A stretch of DNA of 64,000 nucleotides from Ignavibacteria bacterium. Its GTDB lineage: Bacteria; Bacteroidota; Ignavibacteria; Tepidaquicellales; OLB5. The notes beneath the pieces are model-generated. The model searched no databases. It was not told where the DNA came from and saw only the letters and a program-made list of their open reading frames with translations. A program made the translations under genes and the position numbers. How positions within the stretch are numbered: the stretch's first letter is position 1; every line of letters starts with the position of its first letter. Where the stretch lies: the NCBI GenBank assembly GCA_020852705.1, contig JADZAP010000006.1, forward strand, positions 1 to 64,000, given 5' to 3'. Below are positions 10,408 through 48,726 of the stretch, piece after piece.

Positions 10408-10980
10408 TTGCCAAAAGTCAATACTTTAAGATCAAAAAGCAAGAATAAAAAAGATTTTAATAATAAGAATTTAAAGGCGTTCATTACGTCTGCAAGAATA
10501 ATTAAGCGGGTTAAGCAGCTTGCAAAGGTAATCAATAAAGATTATAAAAACAGAGTTCCTATTTTTATTGGAGTATTAAACGGTTCTTTTATTTTCATCA
10601 GCGATCTTGTTAGAGCTGTTAAACTTGATGTTGAAATAGATTTCCTTAAACTCTCAAGTTATGGCGATAGCAAAATTTCAAGCGGTGAGGTTAAACTTCT
10701 TAAAGAGCTTAACTGCCAAATAGAAGGACGAGATATTATTATAGTAGAAGATATTGTTGACTCAGGACTTTCTGCTAAATATATAAGAAATTTGGTGCTT
10801 CAGCACCGCCCTAATTCCCTGGAGTTTTGTACATTGCTGATGAAAAAGGGTTTAAGCAATCTTGATTTTGATATAAAATATGTTGGTTTTGAAATTGAAA
10901 ATAAATTTGTAGTTGGTTACGGACTTGATTATGCTCAAAAGTACAGAAACCTTAAAAGTATTGCAGTACTTAAGCCATAA
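10408..10980 (+). CDS. hpt: Hypoxanthine phosphoribosyltransferase
   Basis: A 190-residue type I phosphoribosyltransferase for purine salvage (hypoxanthine/guanine plus PRPP to nucleotide). The PRPP-binding motif is IIIVEDIVDSGLS (about 110-122). FIGVLNGSFIFISDLVR near residue 51 and the GYGLDYAQKYRNL segment near the C-terminus are typical of the bacterial HPRT family. The frame begins at TTG 10408 with a 25-residue Lys-rich lead-in longer than usual; a later non-ATG start cannot be excluded. It lies 48 bp upstream of ftsH, the conserved hpt-ftsH pairing. The tilS gene that often precedes this pair in other bacteria is absent here. Confidence 0.9.
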   Translation: MPKVNTLRSKSKNKKDFNNKNLKAFITSARIIKRVKQLAKVINKDYKNRVPIFIGVLNGSFIFISDLVRAVKLDVEIDFLKLSSYGDSKISSGEVKLLKELNCQIEGRDIIIVEDIVDSGLSAKYIRNLVLQHRPNSLEFCTLLMKKGLSNLDFDIKYVGFEIENKFVVGYGLDYAQKYRNLKSIAVLKP

Positions 10981-11028: not shown

Positions 11029-13080
11029 ATGCCGGAAGATTTTTCAAATAACGGATCAAAACAGAAGCCGCCAAAACGCAGGCGAAACGAAGAATTTAAC
11101 TGGAACAGGGTGTTCAAGGTTGTGCTTGGATGGAGTGCAATACTTTTCGGCTTTTTCCTGATTATGATTTGGTCAAAATCAGGTGATGGAGGAGAAGTTG
11201 AAATTGGCTTTGACCAATACCAGAAATTATTAAATGATAATAAGATCAAAGAAGCTGTTGTTAAAAAACTTGATAATACTTTTACTTTCCACGGAGTTTT
11301 AAAACAGCCTGAGCCTGTAAATGTTGGCTCTAGACAGGTTACCACTGAAAAGTTTTCTGTTCTTCTACCTTACACTAACATAGATGATAATGTAATTAAA
11401 ACATGGAATGATAAGCAAATTGCTTTCAGAATTGAAAAAGAAGATACTAGCTGGATAGGTCCTTTAATCGGGGCGTTGCCATGGATACTTATTATAGTAT
11501 TCTGGATAATTATTATGCGCCGAATGCAGGGACAGGGCGGAGGAACAAAAGGAATTTTTTCATTCGGTAAATCAAAAGCTAAAATGCTCACAGAAAATCA
11601 ACTTCGTGTAACATTTAAAGATGTTGCCGGTGCTGATGAAGCAAAATATGAGCTTGAAGAGATTATAGAATTCTTAAGAGAACCCTCCAAATTCCAAAAG
11701 CTTGGCGGTAAAATCCCCAGAGGAGTACTTTTGCTCGGACCTCCCGGAACCGGGAAGACCCTTCTTGCAAGGGCTGTTGCCGGTGAGGCAGGTGTGCCAT
11801 TTTTCAGTATCAGCGGTGCTGATTTTGTTGAAATGTTTGTTGGTGTAGGTGCCTCCAGAGTGCGTGATCTTTTTGAAAAAGGAAAAAAGAACGCACCATG
11901 TATAATATTTATTGATGAAATTGATGCCGTTGGCAGGCACCGAGGTGCCGGACTTGGCGGCGGTCATGATGAACGCGAACAGACTTTAAATCAGCTTCTT
12001 GTTGAAATGGATGGATTTGAGCAAAATGCAGGAGTTATCATAATAGCTGCAACCAACAGACCTGATGTACTTGATCCCGCATTATTAAGACCAGGCAGGT
12101 TTGACAGGCAGGTTGTTGTAGATAGACCTGATGTTAAAGGACGCGAAGGTATTTTTAAGGTTCATGTTCGTAATATTCCGCTTGATAAAAACGTATCGCT
12201 TGAAATTCTTGCCAAAGGTACTCCCGGTTTATCCGGTGCTGATATTGCTAATCTTGTGAATGAAGCTGCGCTTCTTGCTGCCCGCAAAAATAAAGATAAA
12301 GTTACTATGGCTGATTTTGAAGAAGCTAAAGATAAAGTTATGATGGGAATGGAGCGTAAGAGTCTGATTATTAGCGAGCAGGAAAAGAAAACTACTGCTT
12401 ATCATGAAATTGGACATGTGTTAGTTGCAAAGATGATACCAGAGTCAGACCCTGTGCATAAAGTTACAATTATTCCCAGAGGCAGAGCACTTGGAGTTAC
12501 AACTTATCTGCCAATTGATGAAAAGCATACATACAGCAAAGAATATCTTGAGGCAATGATAGCTTATGCAATGGGCGGCAGAGCCGCTGAAAAAATTGTA
12601 TTTAATCAGCTTACAACCGGTGCTGGCAATGATATTGAGCGTGCAACAGCACTTGCCCGTAAAATGGTGTGTGAGTGGGGGATGAGTGAAAAACTTGGAC
12701 CGCTTACATTTGGCAAAAAGGAAGAAGAAATATTTCTTGGACGCGAAATTGCTCAGCACAGAGACTATAGCGAAGAAACTGCTGAATTGATAGATTCAGA
12801 AGTAAAAGGAATCGTTAACAGAGGTATGGAACGTGCTGAAACCATTTTGCGAAACAATATTGAAATTCTGCACAAACTTTCCGCAGCACTTTTGGATCGT
12901 GAGATTTTAGACAGTGAGGAGATTGATAAGGTTATGCGCGGTGAAACACTTCCTCCTTTTGAGAAAATAAAAATGAACGGAGATTCTTCCGGTAAATCCA
13001 ATGGTGTTATAATATCACCAGAAATTAAAGAGGATTCAGGAGATAGTTCAGCAGGTAATTCTGACGAGAAAAAGTTATAA
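11029..13080 (+). CDS. ftsH: ATP-dependent zinc metalloprotease FtsH
   Basis: A 683-residue membrane AAA+ protease that degrades misassembled membrane proteins and short-lived regulators. Two membrane helices (about 31-48 and 149-163) flank a periplasmic domain. The AAA+ module has Walker A GPPGTGKT (237-244), Walker [10 protein letters not shown], the second region of homology [18 protein letters not shown], and the pore motif FVG. The zinc site is HEIGH at 459-463, with Ile where most family members have Ala. The C-terminal 45 residues are a Ser/Asp-rich tail. Long enough and complete. It is cotranscribed with hpt, and a strong terminator follows at 13122-13160. Confidence 0.97.
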
Positions 13081-27638: not shown

Positions 27639-29735
27639 ATGTCAAGAAAAGTTTCATTAGAAAAAACCAGAAATATCGGTATAATGGCTCACATTGATGC
27701 CGGTAAAACCACTACAACAGAAAGAATACTTTATTATACCGGTCGTTTACACAGGATGGGTGAAGTACATGAAGGTGCGGCAACTATGGACTGGATGGAA
27801 CAGGAAAAAGAACGCGGTATCACAATTACCAGCGCTGCAACAACTTGTTTTTGGAAAGATCACAGAATTAATATTATAGATACTCCCGGTCACGTTGATT
27901 TTACCGCAGAGGTTGAACGTTCGTTAAGAGTGCTTGATGGAGCAGTAGCTTTATTCTGTTCGGTTGGCGGTGTTGAACCTCAATCAGAAACTGTTTGGAG
28001 ACAAGCAGATAAATACGGAGTTCCTCGTTTAGCCTTTGTAAATAAGATGGATAGAACCGGCGCTGATTTTTATCATGTTCTTGATATGATGAAAGAAAGA
28101 TTGAAAGCCAATGTTGTTCCATTGCAGCTTCCTGTTGGACAAGGAGATATGTTTGTCGGACAGATTGATCTTATCAGGATGAAAGCGCTTATATACAATG
28201 CTGATACTTTAGGTCAAACCTGGGAAGAGCAGGAAATACCTGCTTCTTTAACCGAAAAAGCAAAGGAATACAGATTAAAATTACTTGAATCGGTTTCTGA
28301 GGTTGATGACACATTGTTAAACAAATTCTTAGATGGACAGGAAATTACTGAAGAAGAAATTAAACGTGTTTTAAGAGAAGCTACATTAAAGGTTAAGATA
28401 ATCCCTGTGCTTTGCGGCTCATCTTTTAAGAACAAAGGTGTTCAAACTTTACTTGATTCTGTAATAGATTATCTGCCTTGTCCTAAAGATATTGGCGAAG
28501 TATGGGGGCATCACGTTCACACTGATGACCATATTACAAGAGAAGTTTCAGATAAAGAAAAATTCTCAGCTCTTGCTTTTAAAATTATGACAGATCCTTT
28601 TGTTGGTAAACTTACTTTCTTCAGAGTTTATTCAGGAATACTGAAATCAGGTTCATATACATATAATTCTGTTTCTGAAAAAAAGGAAAGAGTCGGCAGA
28701 TTGCTGCAAATGCATGCTAATCACCGTGAAGATATAGATGAAGTGCATGCCGGTGATATTGCTGCTGCTATTGGTTTAAAAAATACAAAGACAGGCGATA
28801 CATTGTGCGATGAAGGTGATCCAATTATTCTGGAAAGAATGACTTTCCCTGACCCTGTTATTTCTATTGCTATTGAACCAAAAACCAAAGCCGATCAGGA
28901 TAGGTTATCTGAATCACTTGGAAAATTAGCTGATGAAGATCCTACATTAAAAATCTCAACCAATGAAGAAACAGGTCAGACAATACTTGCAGGTATGGGC
29001 GAACTTCATCTTGAAATTATTGTTGACAGATTAAAGAGAGAATTTAAAGTTGATGCAAATATTGGGAAACCCCAGGTTGCATACAAGGAAACTATTACCA
29101 AGAAAGTTGAACAGGAAGGCAAATTTATCCGTCAATCAGGCGGTAAAGGTCAGTTTGGTCATGTTTGGATTACAATTGAACCGAATGAAAAAGGTAAAGG
29201 GTTTGTATTTGAAAATAAAATCGTAGGCGGTGCTATACCCAGAGAGTTTATAAAACCTGTTGAGCATGGAATTGAAGAAGCTATGAAAAATGGAGTTCTA
29301 GCAGGCTATCCTGTTGAAGATATCAAAGCAACACTTTTTGATGGATCTTTCCATGATGTTGACTCTTCAGAAATGGCATTTAAGATTGCCGGATCTATGG
29401 CATTTAAAGCCGGTGCTTTAAAGGCAGGTCCGGTTATACTTGAACCTATTATGAAGGTTGAAGTTACAACTCCAGAAGAATATATGGGTGATATTATGGG
29501 AGATCTTAGCTCACGCAGAGGAAAAATTGAAGGTATGTCTCAGCGTGCTGACGCTCAGGTTATACGAGCAATGGTACCGCTCTCTGAAATGTTCGGTTAT
29601 GCTACTCAGATGCGTTCTATGACACAGGGACGTGCAATCTATAATATGGAAACTTCTCATTACGAAGAAGTGCCAAAGAATATCTCAGAACAGATCATTG
29701 AGAAATTTAAAGGTAAAGAATCAGTTAACGCATAA
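27639..29735 (+). CDS. fusA: Elongation factor G
   Basis: A 698-residue translational GTPase that drives translocation. G1 is [14 protein letters not shown]3 DTPGHVDF, G4 NKMD; the switch I region is [19 protein letters not shown]. Domains II-V follow in full, including [11 protein letters not shown] and [20 protein letters not shown], and the end is [19 protein letters not shown]. The length and motifs are of the housekeeping EF-G type. In the usual order tuf would follow directly; here a tRNA gene and a structured stretch intervene. Confidence 0.98.
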
Positions 29736-29918: not shown

Positions 29919-29992
29919 GGGCCAGTAGCTCAGGTGGTTAGAGCACGCGCCTTATAAGCGCGGGGTGGGAGGTTCAAATCCTCCCTGGCCCA
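29919..29992 (+). tRNA. tRNA-Ile with anticodon UAU
   Basis: A 74-nt cloverleaf. Acceptor GGGCCAG pairs with CTGGCCC (29985-29991); the D arm is GCTC/GAGC. The anticodon stem CGCGC/GCGCG (29946-29950 and 29958-29962) has the 7-nt loop CTTATAA, so the anticodon is UAU (29953-29955) and reads AUA. The T arm is GGAGG/CCTCC with loop TTCAAAT. The discriminator is A (29992) and CCA is not encoded. Most bacteria read AUA with a CAU-anticodon tRNA modified to lysidine by TilS, so a UAU anticodon is unusual. It lies between fusA and tuf on the same strand. Confidence 0.93.
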
Positions 29993-30021
29993 CTTTAAAC
30001 TTAATGAAGTTTAAACAACTT

Positions 30022-30181: not shown

Positions 30182-31417
30182 ATGGCTAAAGAAAAATTCG
30201 ATAGAAGTAAGCCGCACGTGAACATCGGAACAATTGGTCACGTAGATCATGGTAAGACAACGCTTACCGCTGCTATCACAATGGCACTTGCAAAAAAAGG
30301 TAAAGCTAAAGTAAGAGCATTTGATTCAATTGATAATGCACCTGAAGAAAAAGCAAGAGGTATTACGATTGCAACTGCTCACGTTGAATATGAAACAGAA
30401 AAAAGACATTATGCTCATGTTGACTGTCCGGGTCACGCAGATTATGTTAAAAATATGATCACAGGTGCAGCACAGATGGACGGTGCTATACTTGTAGTTG
30501 CAGCAAATGACGGTGCAATGCCGCAAACTAAAGAGCATATTCTTTTAGCAAGGCAGGTTGGTGTGCCCAGAATTGTTGTATTCCTGAATAAAGTAGATAT
30601 GATTTATGAACAGGAAAAATCTGCTGAAGATGCTGAGCTTCTGCTTGAAGTTGTTGAATCAGAATTACGAGATATATTAACAAGTTTCGAATTCCCCGGA
30701 GATGAAATTCCAATAATTCGCGGTAGTGCATTAAAAGCGATGGAAGCTGGAATTAAAGAGGGTTCTTCTGTTGATGACCCTGCATTAAAATGTATCTATG
30801 ACTTAATGGATGCAGTTGATAACTATGTGCCTGAACCAACCCGCGAGACTGATAAACCATTTCTTATGTCAGTTGAAGATGTATTTTCAATTACCGGACG
30901 CGGAACTGTTGCAACCGGGCGTGTTGAAAGAGGAAAATGCAAGATGGGAGATGAAGTTGAACTTATTGGCTTAGGACAGCATAAGAAAACTGTTGTAACA
31001 GGCATTGAAATGTTCCAGAAGGAACTTGATGAAGGTTTGGCAGGTGATAATCTTGGTATGCTTTTAAGAGGTGTTGATAAAAAAGATATTGAGCGCGGAA
31101 TGGTAATTGCAAAACCCGGTTCAATTACCCCCCATAAAATATTCAATTGTCAGGTTTATGTACTTTCAAAAGAAGAAGGTGGACGTCATACTCCGTTTTT
31201 TGGTAACTATCGTCCTCAGTTTTACTTCAGAACAACTGACGTTACAGGTGTTGTTAATCTGCCCGAAGGCGTACAGATGGTAATGCCGGGTGATAACGTT
31301 GATAACTTAAAGGTTGAACTTATTACTCCGATTGGTATGGAAGAAGGATTAAGGTTCGCTATTCGTGAAGGCGGCAGAACTGTTGGTGCAGGTGTTGTAA
31401 CAAAAATTATTGAATAA
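30182..31417 (+). CDS. tuf: Elongation factor Tu
   Basis: A 411-residue GTPase that delivers aminoacyl-tRNA. G1 is GHVDHGKT (19-26), G3 DCPGH, G4 NKVD; domain II ([16 protein letters not shown]) and domain III ([24 protein letters not shown]) are complete. It is about 15 residues longer than E. coli EF-Tu, mainly from roughly 8 extra residues after [12 protein letters not shown] (about 187-200), at the end of the G domain. Switch I reads [14 protein letters not shown], with A-A where N-S is common. AGGAG lies about 12 bp before the ATG. It heads the tuf-rpsJ-rplC-rplD-rplW group. Confidence 0.98.
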
Positions 31418-40235: not shown

Positions 40236-41552
40236 ATGGCAATAAATTTCAATAAATTCACAATAAAAGCTCAGGAAGCAATGCAGGAAGCAACTGAAAT
40301 TGCATCAAATTATTCTAATCAGCAAATAGAACCTTTGCATTTACTTGCGGCATTAATGCAAAACAATGAATCTATTGCTGTATCGCTGCTTAAAAAGATT
40401 GGTACTGATGTTAATTTTCTTAAAATAAAAATATCCGGTGAAATAGATAAACTTCCTAAAATATCCGGTGCAACTTCTTCAAACCAGTATATTTCCAGCA
40501 GTCTTCAAAAAGATATTGATGAGGCTATTAAGATAGCTTCTCAGCTTAAAGATGAATATATCAGCATTGAACATCTTTTAATATCAATTGCCGAAGATAA
40601 TACACCATCCGGAAAGCTGCTTGCAGAGCAAGGTGTTAACCGAGAATCAATTTTAACAGCATTAAAAGATGTTAGAGGGGCTCAAAGAGTTACCAGCCAA
40701 GCCCCCGAGGAGACTTACCAATCTCTTAAAAAATATGGGCGTGATCTTAATCAGCTTGCTAGTCAAGGAAAACTGGATCCGGTAATTGGCAGGGAAGACG
40801 AAATTAGAAGGGTGCTGCAGGTACTATCCAGAAGAACTAAAAACAACCCGGTTTTAGTTGGTGAGCCCGGAGTAGGCAAAACTGCAATTGCAGAAGGACT
40901 TGCATTCAGAATTGTAAATGGTGAAGTACCCGAAAATTTAAGAACTAAAACTGTAATTGCTCTAGATATGGGTGCACTTATTGCAGGAGCCAGTTACAGA
41001 GGTCAATTTGAAGAACGATTGAAGGCAGTTGTTAATGAAGTTAAGCAAAGTGATGGTGAAATTATTTTATTTATTGATGAAATACATACATTAGTTGGTG
41101 CTGGTAAAACCGATGGTGCAATGGATGCAGCAAATATTTTAAAACCGGCTCTTGCCCGGGGAGAGCTTCATGCAATTGGCGCAACAACTTTAGATGAGTA
41201 CCGTAAATATATTGAAAAAGATCCAGCCTTAGAACGCAGGTTTCAGCCGGTATTGGTTGACGAACCAAGTGTTGAAGATACTATTTCAATTTTACGAGGA
41301 TTAAAAGAAAAATATGAAGTGCATCATGGTGTTAGAATAACAGATGCAGCAATTGTTTCTGCAGCGGCACTTTCTCATCGTTATATAACAGATAGATTTC
41401 TACCTGATAAAGCGATTGACCTAATTGATGAAGCAGCAAGTAAGTTAAGAATAGAAATTGACTCTATGCCAGAGGAGCTGGATATTGTTGAAAAAAAGAT
41501 TAAACAGCTTGAAATTGAACGCGAAGCATTAAAAAGAGAGTTGACAGCGTAA
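40236..41552 (+). CDS. clpB: ClpB N-terminal half (N domain, first AAA+ module, start of M domain)
   Basis: A 438-residue protein equal to the first half of the disaggregase ClpB. The N domain (about 1-145) is followed by NBD1 with Walker A GEPGVGKT (209-216), Walker B IILFIDE (276-282), sensor 1 IGATTLDEY and the arginine fingers in ALERRF (334/335). It ends in the first coiled coil of the middle domain: [18 protein letters not shown], then LTA and a stop. Full ClpB would continue here. The remainder is encoded at 47395-48726, after five unrelated minus-strand genes. ClpB with DnaK rescues aggregated proteins; whether two separate halves assemble is not known. Confidence 0.93.
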
Positions 41553-47369: not shown

Positions 47370-47394
47370 AACCTGTTTTGAATTTTTATTGAAA

Positions 47395-48726
47395 ATGGCT
47401 AAAACAAAAAAAGAAAATCCAACTGCAAAAAGATTAGAAGCAATTGAAAAAGAAATTTCAGAACTCAGTGTACAAAGAGATGAACTTAAAGCTCATTGGC
47501 TGCTGGAAAAAGATATGATTTCAGGTATCCGGAATATGAAGGAAGAGCTTGATAAATTAAAAACAGATGCAGATAATTTTGAAAGACAAGGTGATCTTGC
47601 AAAGGTTGCAGAAATTAGATACGGAAAAATGATTGAACTTCAAAAGAAACTTGATGAAAACTCCGCAAAACTAAATGATCTGCAGAAAACAACTAAAATG
47701 CTGAAAGAAGAAGTTGATTCAGAAGATATTGCTGAGATTGTTTCCAAGTGGACAGGTATACCGCTTTCAAAAATGCTTGAGAGCGAACGCGAAAAACTTC
47801 TTCATATAGAAGAGAATCTGCATAACAGAGTTGTTGGACAAGATGAAGCAATTAGTGCCGTAGCAAATGCAATCAGAAGAAGCCGTGCAGGACTGCAGGA
47901 TATAAACCGTCCGATTGGTTCTTTCATCTTCTTAGGGACAACCGGGGTTGGTAAAACTGAGCTTGCAAAAGCTCTTGCTGAATTTCTTTTTGATGATGAA
48001 CATAACCTGATTAGAATTGATATGAGTGAATATATGGAAAAATTTTCGGTTAGCAGACTTATTGGTGCTCCCCCGGGATATGTAGGATATGAAGAAGGGG
48101 GACAGTTAACTGAAGCAGTACGAAGAAAACCGTACAGCGTTGTTTTGCTTGATGAAATAGAAAAAGCTCACCCTGATGTATTTAATATTCTTTTGCAGCT
48201 TCTTGATGACGGCATTTTAACTGATTCACAGGGCAGAACTGTCAATTTTAAAAATACAATTGTTATTATGACTTCAAATCTTGGTTCACATATTATTCAG
48301 GATGAATTGCTTGAATTAACTGATACTAATAAAGATGAAGTCTTAAACAATCTGCGGATTAAACTTTTTGAACTTTTAAGGCAGAAAATTAGACCTGAAA
48401 TACTGAACAGAATTGATGAAGTTGTAATGTTTAAACCTCTTATGAGTGATGAGCTTAGAAAAATTGTTGATATACAATTAAATGGAATCATCAGAATGTT
48501 ATTGAAAAACAATGAAATTAATCTTTCAATAACTGATGATGCTAAAGACTGGCTTGCAAAGATTGGATATGATATAACTTTTGGAGCCAGACCATTAAAA
48601 AGAACAATCCAAAACCATATTACCAATATTTTATCTGAAAAGATTATATCAGGTGAAATTCTCCCCGGAGAGAATGTCAAGGTTACCGTTAATGATGCGG
48701 GAAAATTTTTATTCAACAGTAAATAA
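47395..48726 (+). CDS. clpB: ClpB C-terminal half (rest of M domain, second AAA+ module)
   Basis: About 443 residues from ATG 47395; an in-frame TTG 6 bp earlier is possible. It opens with KKENPTAKRLEAIEKEI, which aligns to the first M-domain helix at the very point where the N-terminal half stops, then continues through RQGDLAKVAEIRYGKM and WTGIPLSKMLESEREKL. NBD2 has Walker A GTTGVGKT (181-188, Thr replacing the usual Pro), Walker B VVLLDEIEKAHP (249-260) and EYMEKFSVSRLIGAPPGYVG. The D2-small domain is complete (FGARPLKRTIQNHI). All catalytic residues look intact, arguing for a working polypeptide. Confidence 0.93.
   Translation: MAKTKKENPTAKRLEAIEKEISELSVQRDELKAHWLLEKDMISGIRNMKEELDKLKTDADNFERQGDLAKVAEIRYGKMIELQKKLDENSAKLNDLQKTTKMLKEEVDSEDIAEIVSKWTGIPLSKMLESEREKLLHIEENLHNRVVGQDEAISAVANAIRRSRAGLQDINRPIGSFIFLGTTGVGKTELAKALAEFLFDDEHNLIRIDMSEYMEKFSVSRLIGAPPGYVGYEEGGQLTEAVRRKPYSVVLLDEIEKAHPDVFNILLQLLDDGILTDSQGRTVNFKNTIVIMTSNLGSHIIQDELLELTDTNKDEVLNNLRIKLFELLRQKIRPEILNRIDEVVMFKPLMSDELRKIVDIQLNGIIRMLLKNNEINLSITDDAKDWLAKIGYDITFGARPLKRTIQNHITNILSEKIISGEILPGENVKVTVNDAGKFLFNSK

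Follow-up and report, generated by a model that had tools for sequence, protein, structure and literature searches.

How does a bacterium read the codon AUA when its genome carries a tRNA-Ile with a UAU anticodon? Lysidine is said to serve this purpose in almost all bacteria, and TilS has been described as essential in model bacteria; archaea use agmatidine for AUA. The stretch of DNA that we analyzed (the window) comprises 64,000 nucleotides, positions 1-64000 of one contig (C8) in a genome of 2.94 Mb that is assembled in 75 contigs and is 97.6% complete. The genome belongs to an order of the class Ignavibacteria that GTDB names SJA-28, otherwise Ca. Tepidiaquacellales (also spelled Tepidaquicellales), with genomes of 2-4.6 Mb. 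Ca. Tepidaquicellales is the former SJA-28 lineage, to which OLB4, OLB5, UTCHB1, UBA2330, and the closed genome Ch128a are assigned (PMC7509429), and the NCBI taxonomy places UBA6667 in the same order.

The preliminary description of this locus read it as a tRNA-Ile with a UAU anticodon, and two programs agree. ARAGORN reports a single tRNA in the window, tRNA-Ile(tat), at 29919-29993 on the plus strand, and the segment 29919-29992 matches the Rfam family RF00005 with 68.9 bits (cut-off 29, E-value 6e-14). The anticodon loop reads C32-U33-U34-A35-U36-A37-A38, with U34 at position 29953, and the body of the molecule, in which A73 and A37/A38 are present, resembles tRNA-Ile more closely in sequence than it does tRNA-Met. 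Across order SJA-28 we find 8 distinct variants of this tRNA; all 21 cloverleaf pairs form in them, and wherever one strand of a stem has changed, its partner has changed to match. The same tRNA occurs in 40 of the 44 genomes of the order, which rules out both an error of sequencing and a hairpin formed by chance. The four members without a UAU match (G002, G006, G009, and G022) are drafts, 64-94% complete, and we tentatively attribute the missing matches to assembly gaps. Outside the order, no true match was found in the 250 other genomes of the class, nor in the rest of a phylum sample of 395 genomes; pattern matches in G086, G166, and G185 were dismissed by eye, as no anticodon stem forms in them.

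Table 1. Features of the window that bear on the decoding of AUA.
Feature	Position	Strand	Evidence and remarks
rpsU (bS21), 66 aa	10059..10259	+	Pfam Ribosomal_S21, E 1.1e-17; directly upstream of hpt, at the place of tilS in sisters
hpt	10408..10980	+	Pfam Pribosyltran; overlaps the end of tilS in the tilS+ sister G143
ftsH	11029..13080	+	ORF; ends the ancestral three-gene cluster tilS-hpt-ftsH
fusA (EF-G)	27639..29735	+	ORF; upstream neighbour of tRNA-Ile(UAU)
tRNA-Ile(UAU) gene	29919..29992	+	ARAGORN; Rfam tRNA; kept in 40/44 order SJA-28 genomes; CCA not encoded
Anticodon TAT (U34 A35 U36)	29953..29955	+	read from the sequence; invariant in all order members found
tuf (EF-Tu)	30182..31417	+	ORF; synteny; downstream neighbour of tRNA-Ile(UAU)

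As to where this tRNA came from, whole-molecule identity is similar to the tRNA-Ile(GAU) (54-60 of 74 positions) and to the tRNA-Ile2(CAU) sequences (53-59 of 74), and does not decide. The anticodon arm matches GAU tRNAs at 15-17 of 21 positions, versus 12-15 for the Ile2(CAU) tRNAs. Because the arm is GAU-like, we propose as the probable origin of the gene a second copy of tRNA-Ile(GAU) in which G34 changed to U; the evidence is weak, and this hint of a GAU ancestry should be taken as a lead rather than a result.

The arrangement fusA - tRNA-Ile(UAU) - tuf is conserved in every member of the order compared, with the flanks identified by tblastn. It is found, for instance, in Ignavibacteria bacterium BIN9, BIN10, UBA6667, HKST-UBA123, and MS_R2_34, all without tilS. 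The window also holds the hpt-ftsH pair, described earlier as lacking the tilS gene that often accompanies it, and the comparison with relatives bears this out. The tilS+ sister G143 has the three genes in the order tilS, hpt, ftsH, the first two overlapping, and hpt stands beside tilS in several further relatives; in the window and in four genomes of the same genus (G007, G004, G008, and G012) the order is rpsU - hpt - ftsH. A search with the sister TilS protein as query detected no tilS remnant in the window or in the loci of those four relatives. Of the ancestral cluster tilS-hpt-ftsH, order SJA-28 no longer has the first gene.

A separate observation on gene order in the window concerns clpB, which is split into two ORFs on the same strand. 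The N-terminal half (40236-41552) holds Clp_N and the first AAA domain, the C-terminal half (47389-48726) holds AAA_2 and the D2-small domain, and between them lie 5.8 kb with five genes on the opposite strand. An assembly error is an improbable cause of the split, because G007 (L289) has the same split with the identical five intervening genes.

Is tilS to be found anywhere else in the genome? Using the model TIGR02432 with its cut-off of 93.6 bits, no gene of the source genome passes; the best match reaches 21.9 bits, and that gene reads as a GMP synthase (GuaA), with which the PP-loop fold is shared. The genome has 40 tRNAs, and the two with a CAU anticodon are the initiator and the elongator tRNA-Met, so that neither tilS nor a CAU tRNA-Ile was found genome-wide. 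The same search finds tilS above the cut-off in 0 of the 44 genomes of order SJA-28, 35 of which are at least 90% complete with no more than 5% contamination, versus 244 of the 250 remaining genomes of the class (98%). In other words, the 50 genomes without tilS among the 294 of the class are the 44 members of this order and six scattered others. One class member with no tilS match, G103, has two CAU tRNAs and retains the synthetase residue Trp749 discussed below, and because of these its missing tilS is probably an assembly gap. Within the phylum, the association of the UAU tRNA with the loss of tilS counts as one evolutionary event.

We also searched the 44 genomes using a pattern of an NAU anticodon and a standard D-arm, and found no tRNA-Ile2(CAU) in any of them. 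The pattern returned the elongator tRNA-Met(CAU), tRNA-Ile(UAU), tRNA-Ile(GAU) where it was assembled, and three chance matches; sisters of the order usually have two CAU tRNAs of this type, Met and Ile2. The lysidine decoding set, tilS together with tRNA-Ile2(CAU), was thus not found in order SJA-28. The preliminary suggestion that TilS/lysidine decoding has been replaced in this organism is supported, and it extends to the order.

Could tilS and tRNA-Ile2(CAU) both be hidden in assembly gaps, with the UAU tRNA being an extra one, of the kind found beside tilS in some planctomycetes and actinomycetes? The source genome is a draft MAG in which the Ile-GAU, Ala-UGC, Phe, and Asn tRNAs are absent from the 40 found, and in the large genomes listed by the scan described below a UAU tRNA often stands together with tilS. 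Against such gaps stand the joint absence in all 44 genomes, high-completeness ones included, and two assemblies in particular: G007, near-complete in two contigs, carries UAU, GAU, and Met-CAU tRNAs and no tilS, and G036, a single contig of 2.4 Mb, has UAU and Met-CAU tRNAs and no tilS. We regard hidden genes as highly improbable. We give even less credence to an unrelated, TiaS-like enzyme or a highly diverged TilS that would still modify a CAU tRNA-Ile. Archaeal agmatidine is a precedent, and there are weak PP-loop matches in the order, but agmatidine decoding by TiaS, like any such modification, would have no CAU tRNA-Ile to act on among the 44 genomes, and the weak match of the source genome sits in the GuaA-like gene already mentioned.

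The AUA codon is heavily used. The earlier remark that AUA codons are plentiful is borne out in the 51 ORFs of the window, where AUA makes up 31.5 per 1000 codons and 34.9% of the isoleucine codons, and is about twice as frequent as AUG. In translation genes it amounts to 22.4 per 1000 codons, 30% of the isoleucine codons. As for its meaning, we compared the IleRS genes of 10 order members with those of nine tilS+ sisters and E. coli. In columns where the order has AUA, these relatives hold I in 40%, V in 22%, and M in 2.8% of the cases, which is practically the same as in AUU columns (I 44%, M 2.4%); in AUG columns they hold M in 39%. By this comparison of aligned columns, AUA is isoleucine in order SJA-28.

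We are confident in the following reading of these sequences: the gene at 29919-29992 would encode an AUA-decoding tRNA-Ile that pairs with AUA directly, TilS, lysidine, and tRNA-Ile2(CAU) would have become dispensable, both genes would have been lost in the ancestor of the order, and the tRNA would be charged by a type-2 IleRS with the change W749R. A UAU anticodon encoded in the genome pairs with AUA directly, and therefore lysidine, TilS, and tRNA-Ile2(CAU) are unneeded. The tRNA would be expressed, charged with isoleucine, and would read AUA by standard pairing, with tRNA-Ile(GAU) retained for AUU and AUC and the elongator tRNA-Met(CAU) for AUG. A single type-2 IleRS would charge it, and W749R may help in the acceptance of U34. 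Misreading of AUG would probably be limited by weak U34-G pairing and competition from tRNA-Met, by analogy with the work in B. subtilis, or by a property of the ribosome as in M. mobile.

A different way to block AUG reading would be a modification of U34 by an enzyme of the order, such as the pseudouridine of eukaryotes or some other restrictive modification. PMC8007984 describes the eukaryotic UAU anticodon as modified, and the IleRS of the order is of the eukaryote-like type. On the other hand, PMC4014445 reports that U34 is unmodified in M. mobile, and in B. subtilis the suppressor tRNA already favours AUA over AUG without any modification, binding AUA strongly and AUG weakly (PMC4810244). 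We consider a modified U34 unlikely.

The source genome's IleRS (L220:255-3413, on contig C6 of G000) carries the GXHH signature of type-2 enzymes, which here reads GIHH. The IleRSs of the order are about 1050-1100 aa long, have no C-terminal zinc motif, and are closer to the eukaryote-like than to the E. coli enzyme. The switch in decoding cannot be put down to enzyme type alone, since type 2 is what every IleRS compared in the class turned out to be, also in tilS+ members. In a quick tree of IleRS sequences, with several long branches, order SJA-28 forms one clade inside its class; because the clade is nested there, we take the enzyme to be inherited and not imported.

Between the order and its sisters there are 12 fixed IleRS differences. 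One of them, in the anticodon-binding domain, replaces a residue that is invariant in the sisters: Trp becomes Arg at position 749, in the motif SNWYVRRxRxRF[W/R]. We examined this column in a set of 41 tilS+ and 29 tilS-free type-2 IleRS sequences. It is Trp in 40 of the 41 tilS+ sequences, Arg in all 11 sequences of order SJA-28, and never Trp in the tilS-free sequences, of which 26 have a residue at the site and three are gapped; tilS-free sequences beyond the order have K, G, Q, D, V, R, L, or A. Among 922 columns it ranks first, with a score of 0.98 versus 0.85 for the second. The IleRS2 enzymes of T. thermophilus and P. megaterium have Trp at the equivalent position (W728 and W725, by count on alignments). 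The one tilS+ exception in the set is the IleRS of Zavarzinella formosa (L283), with Gln at 749; since its genome carries a UAU tRNA besides tilS, it may represent a stage between the two ways of decoding.

Is this change related to the UAU anticodon, or is it ordinary drift of the lineage? Drift is easy to imagine for one of 12 fixed differences, Zavarzinella has Gln749 despite its tilS, and W749 is retained in six genomes that have a UAU tRNA in addition to tilS. On the tree, tilS status changes at least 5 times and Trp749 at least 4 times, and independent pairs give 3 concordant, 0 discordant, and 1 uninformative comparisons (p 0.25), so few are the independent origins. The link between Trp749 and tilS is therefore a strong correlation that stays below significance on independent pairs, and we call it suggestive. 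Drift has a harder time with the loss of Trp749 in all sampled TilS-free type-2 enzymes of several lineages, against its retention in 40 of 41 others, and with the first rank of the column. Moreover, Taniguchi in 2013 reportedly found that a Trp-to-Arg difference (W905 in E. coli, R865 in M. mobile) governs UAU charging in type-1 IleRS. Weighing this, we would put drift at somewhat less than an even chance.

With the same reserve, and leaning slightly against it, we put forward that in type-2 IleRS a single Trp at 749 may guard against U34, and that its loss, mostly to Arg or Lys, may have enabled several lineages (Tepidiaquacellales, CPR bacteria, Bifidobacterium, and Similichlamydia) to read AUA using a UAU tRNA and to drop TilS; in this it would parallel, by convergence, the W905/R865 difference of type-1 enzymes. 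This is a hypothesis on how synthetases discriminate U34 that comes down to one Trp-to-Arg swap, and if it is true, residue 749 would predict the mode of AUA decoding from the IleRS sequence alone. For the charging of the UAU tRNA by the order's enzyme, W749 to R is a correlative signature. No report of it was found in the openly readable literature searched. Passages of two papers on type-2 IleRS (PMC10485003, PMC4861432) deal with mupirocin resistance and editing and mention neither UAU recognition nor Trp749, and passages on the yeast IleRS structure give no anticodon contacts.

How unusual are UAU tRNAs among bacteria? They had been called rare, but they are less so than claimed: a scan of 84,980 species genomes gave at least 116 UAU-type matches, and ARAGORN confirmed 79 of 80 of the scan matches. 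Many of the matches listed are CPR/Patescibacteria. Among 50 UAU genomes in the matches listed, 31 have no TilS match and 16 have TilS above the cut-off. The 31 are small CPR, some archaea, Bifidobacterium, Similichlamydia, and all five Ignavibacteria; in the large genomes among those listed, the UAU tRNA and tilS often coexist. The 17 genomes of PMC8450103 thus probably understate how common lysidine-free decoding is, as judged from scanned genomes of unstated completeness.

Several individual genomes of the scan deserve mention. The complete genome of Ca. Woesebacteria Ch104b (L110) has a tRNA-Ile(UAU) and no TilS match. Myxococcaceae bacterium GW715_bin.15 (L092, 9.4 Mb) and Deltaproteobacteria RH-26jul17-416 (L094, 6.7 Mb) have UAU tRNAs and TilS-like matches of 59.7 and 54.8 bits, below the cut-off of 93.6, and are possible further TilS losses in large genomes. 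In some tilS+ genomes the UAU tRNA lies in a dense tRNA array, with 24 tRNAs in 8 kb in Rubripirellula obstinata (L149), 17 in L091, and 18 in L159, which suggests mobile or accessory tRNA cassettes that are not part of the core decoding set.

Decoding of AUA by a UAU tRNA without TilS is already known from Mycoplasma mobile, Bifidobacterium, and Neorickettsia (PMC4014445, PMC8450103). According to PMC4014445, the M. mobile tRNA-Ile(UAU) derives from tRNA-Ile2 by a change of C34 to U, and works with a special IleRS and ribosome. Order SJA-28 resembles M. mobile and the hemoplasmas in having no TilS, no tRNA-Ile2(CAU), a UAU tRNA for AUA, and an IleRS unlike that of TilS users. The differences are several. 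M. mobile has the reduced genome of a parasite, whereas genomes of the order are of free-living size, and its tRNA comes from tRNA-Ile2, whereas that of the order is GAU-like. The M. mobile IleRS is reportedly type 1, with its change in the C-terminal zinc domain; that of the order is type 2, without that domain, and changed at another site. Because type-2 IleRS lacks the C-terminal zinc domain, the W905 site has no comparable position here.

PMC8450103 reports a tRNA-Ile3(UAU) in 17 bacterial genomes, Bifidobacterium and Neorickettsia included, in passages that do not mention Ignavibacteria. The likeness is that a UAU tRNA replaces tRNA-Ile2(CAU). In our data B. aesculapii has no tilS and a type-2 IleRS without W749, with Leu at this position as opposed to the Arg of order SJA-28, and Bifidobacterium and Neorickettsia belong to other phyla.

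The B. subtilis tilS suppressor reportedly has a type-1 IleRS and shows residual mistranslation. Its G34-to-U change in tRNA-Ile1(GAU) makes TilS dispensable (Fabret 2011; Koehrer 2014; as cited in PMC8450103 and PMC4810244), a GAU-to-UAU route that is probably the same as the one taken here, with the difference that the suppressor is a laboratory mutant and order SJA-28 a fixed, order-wide natural state. Finally, the enzyme is of the same type as the eukaryote-like IleRS2 and shares its GXHH motif (PMC10485003, PMC4861432), a swapped class I motif that in type-2 IleRS is reported to give mupirocin hyper-resistance (PMC10485003). Set beside these systems, order SJA-28 is a new, order-wide, non-reduced case of known TilS-free UAU decoding, in which the loss of TilS spans a whole order with genomes of several megabases and heavy AUA use and is no quirk of genome reduction. 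What the comparison adds as new is the IleRS Trp749 signature, a strong correlation seen in sequence alignments.
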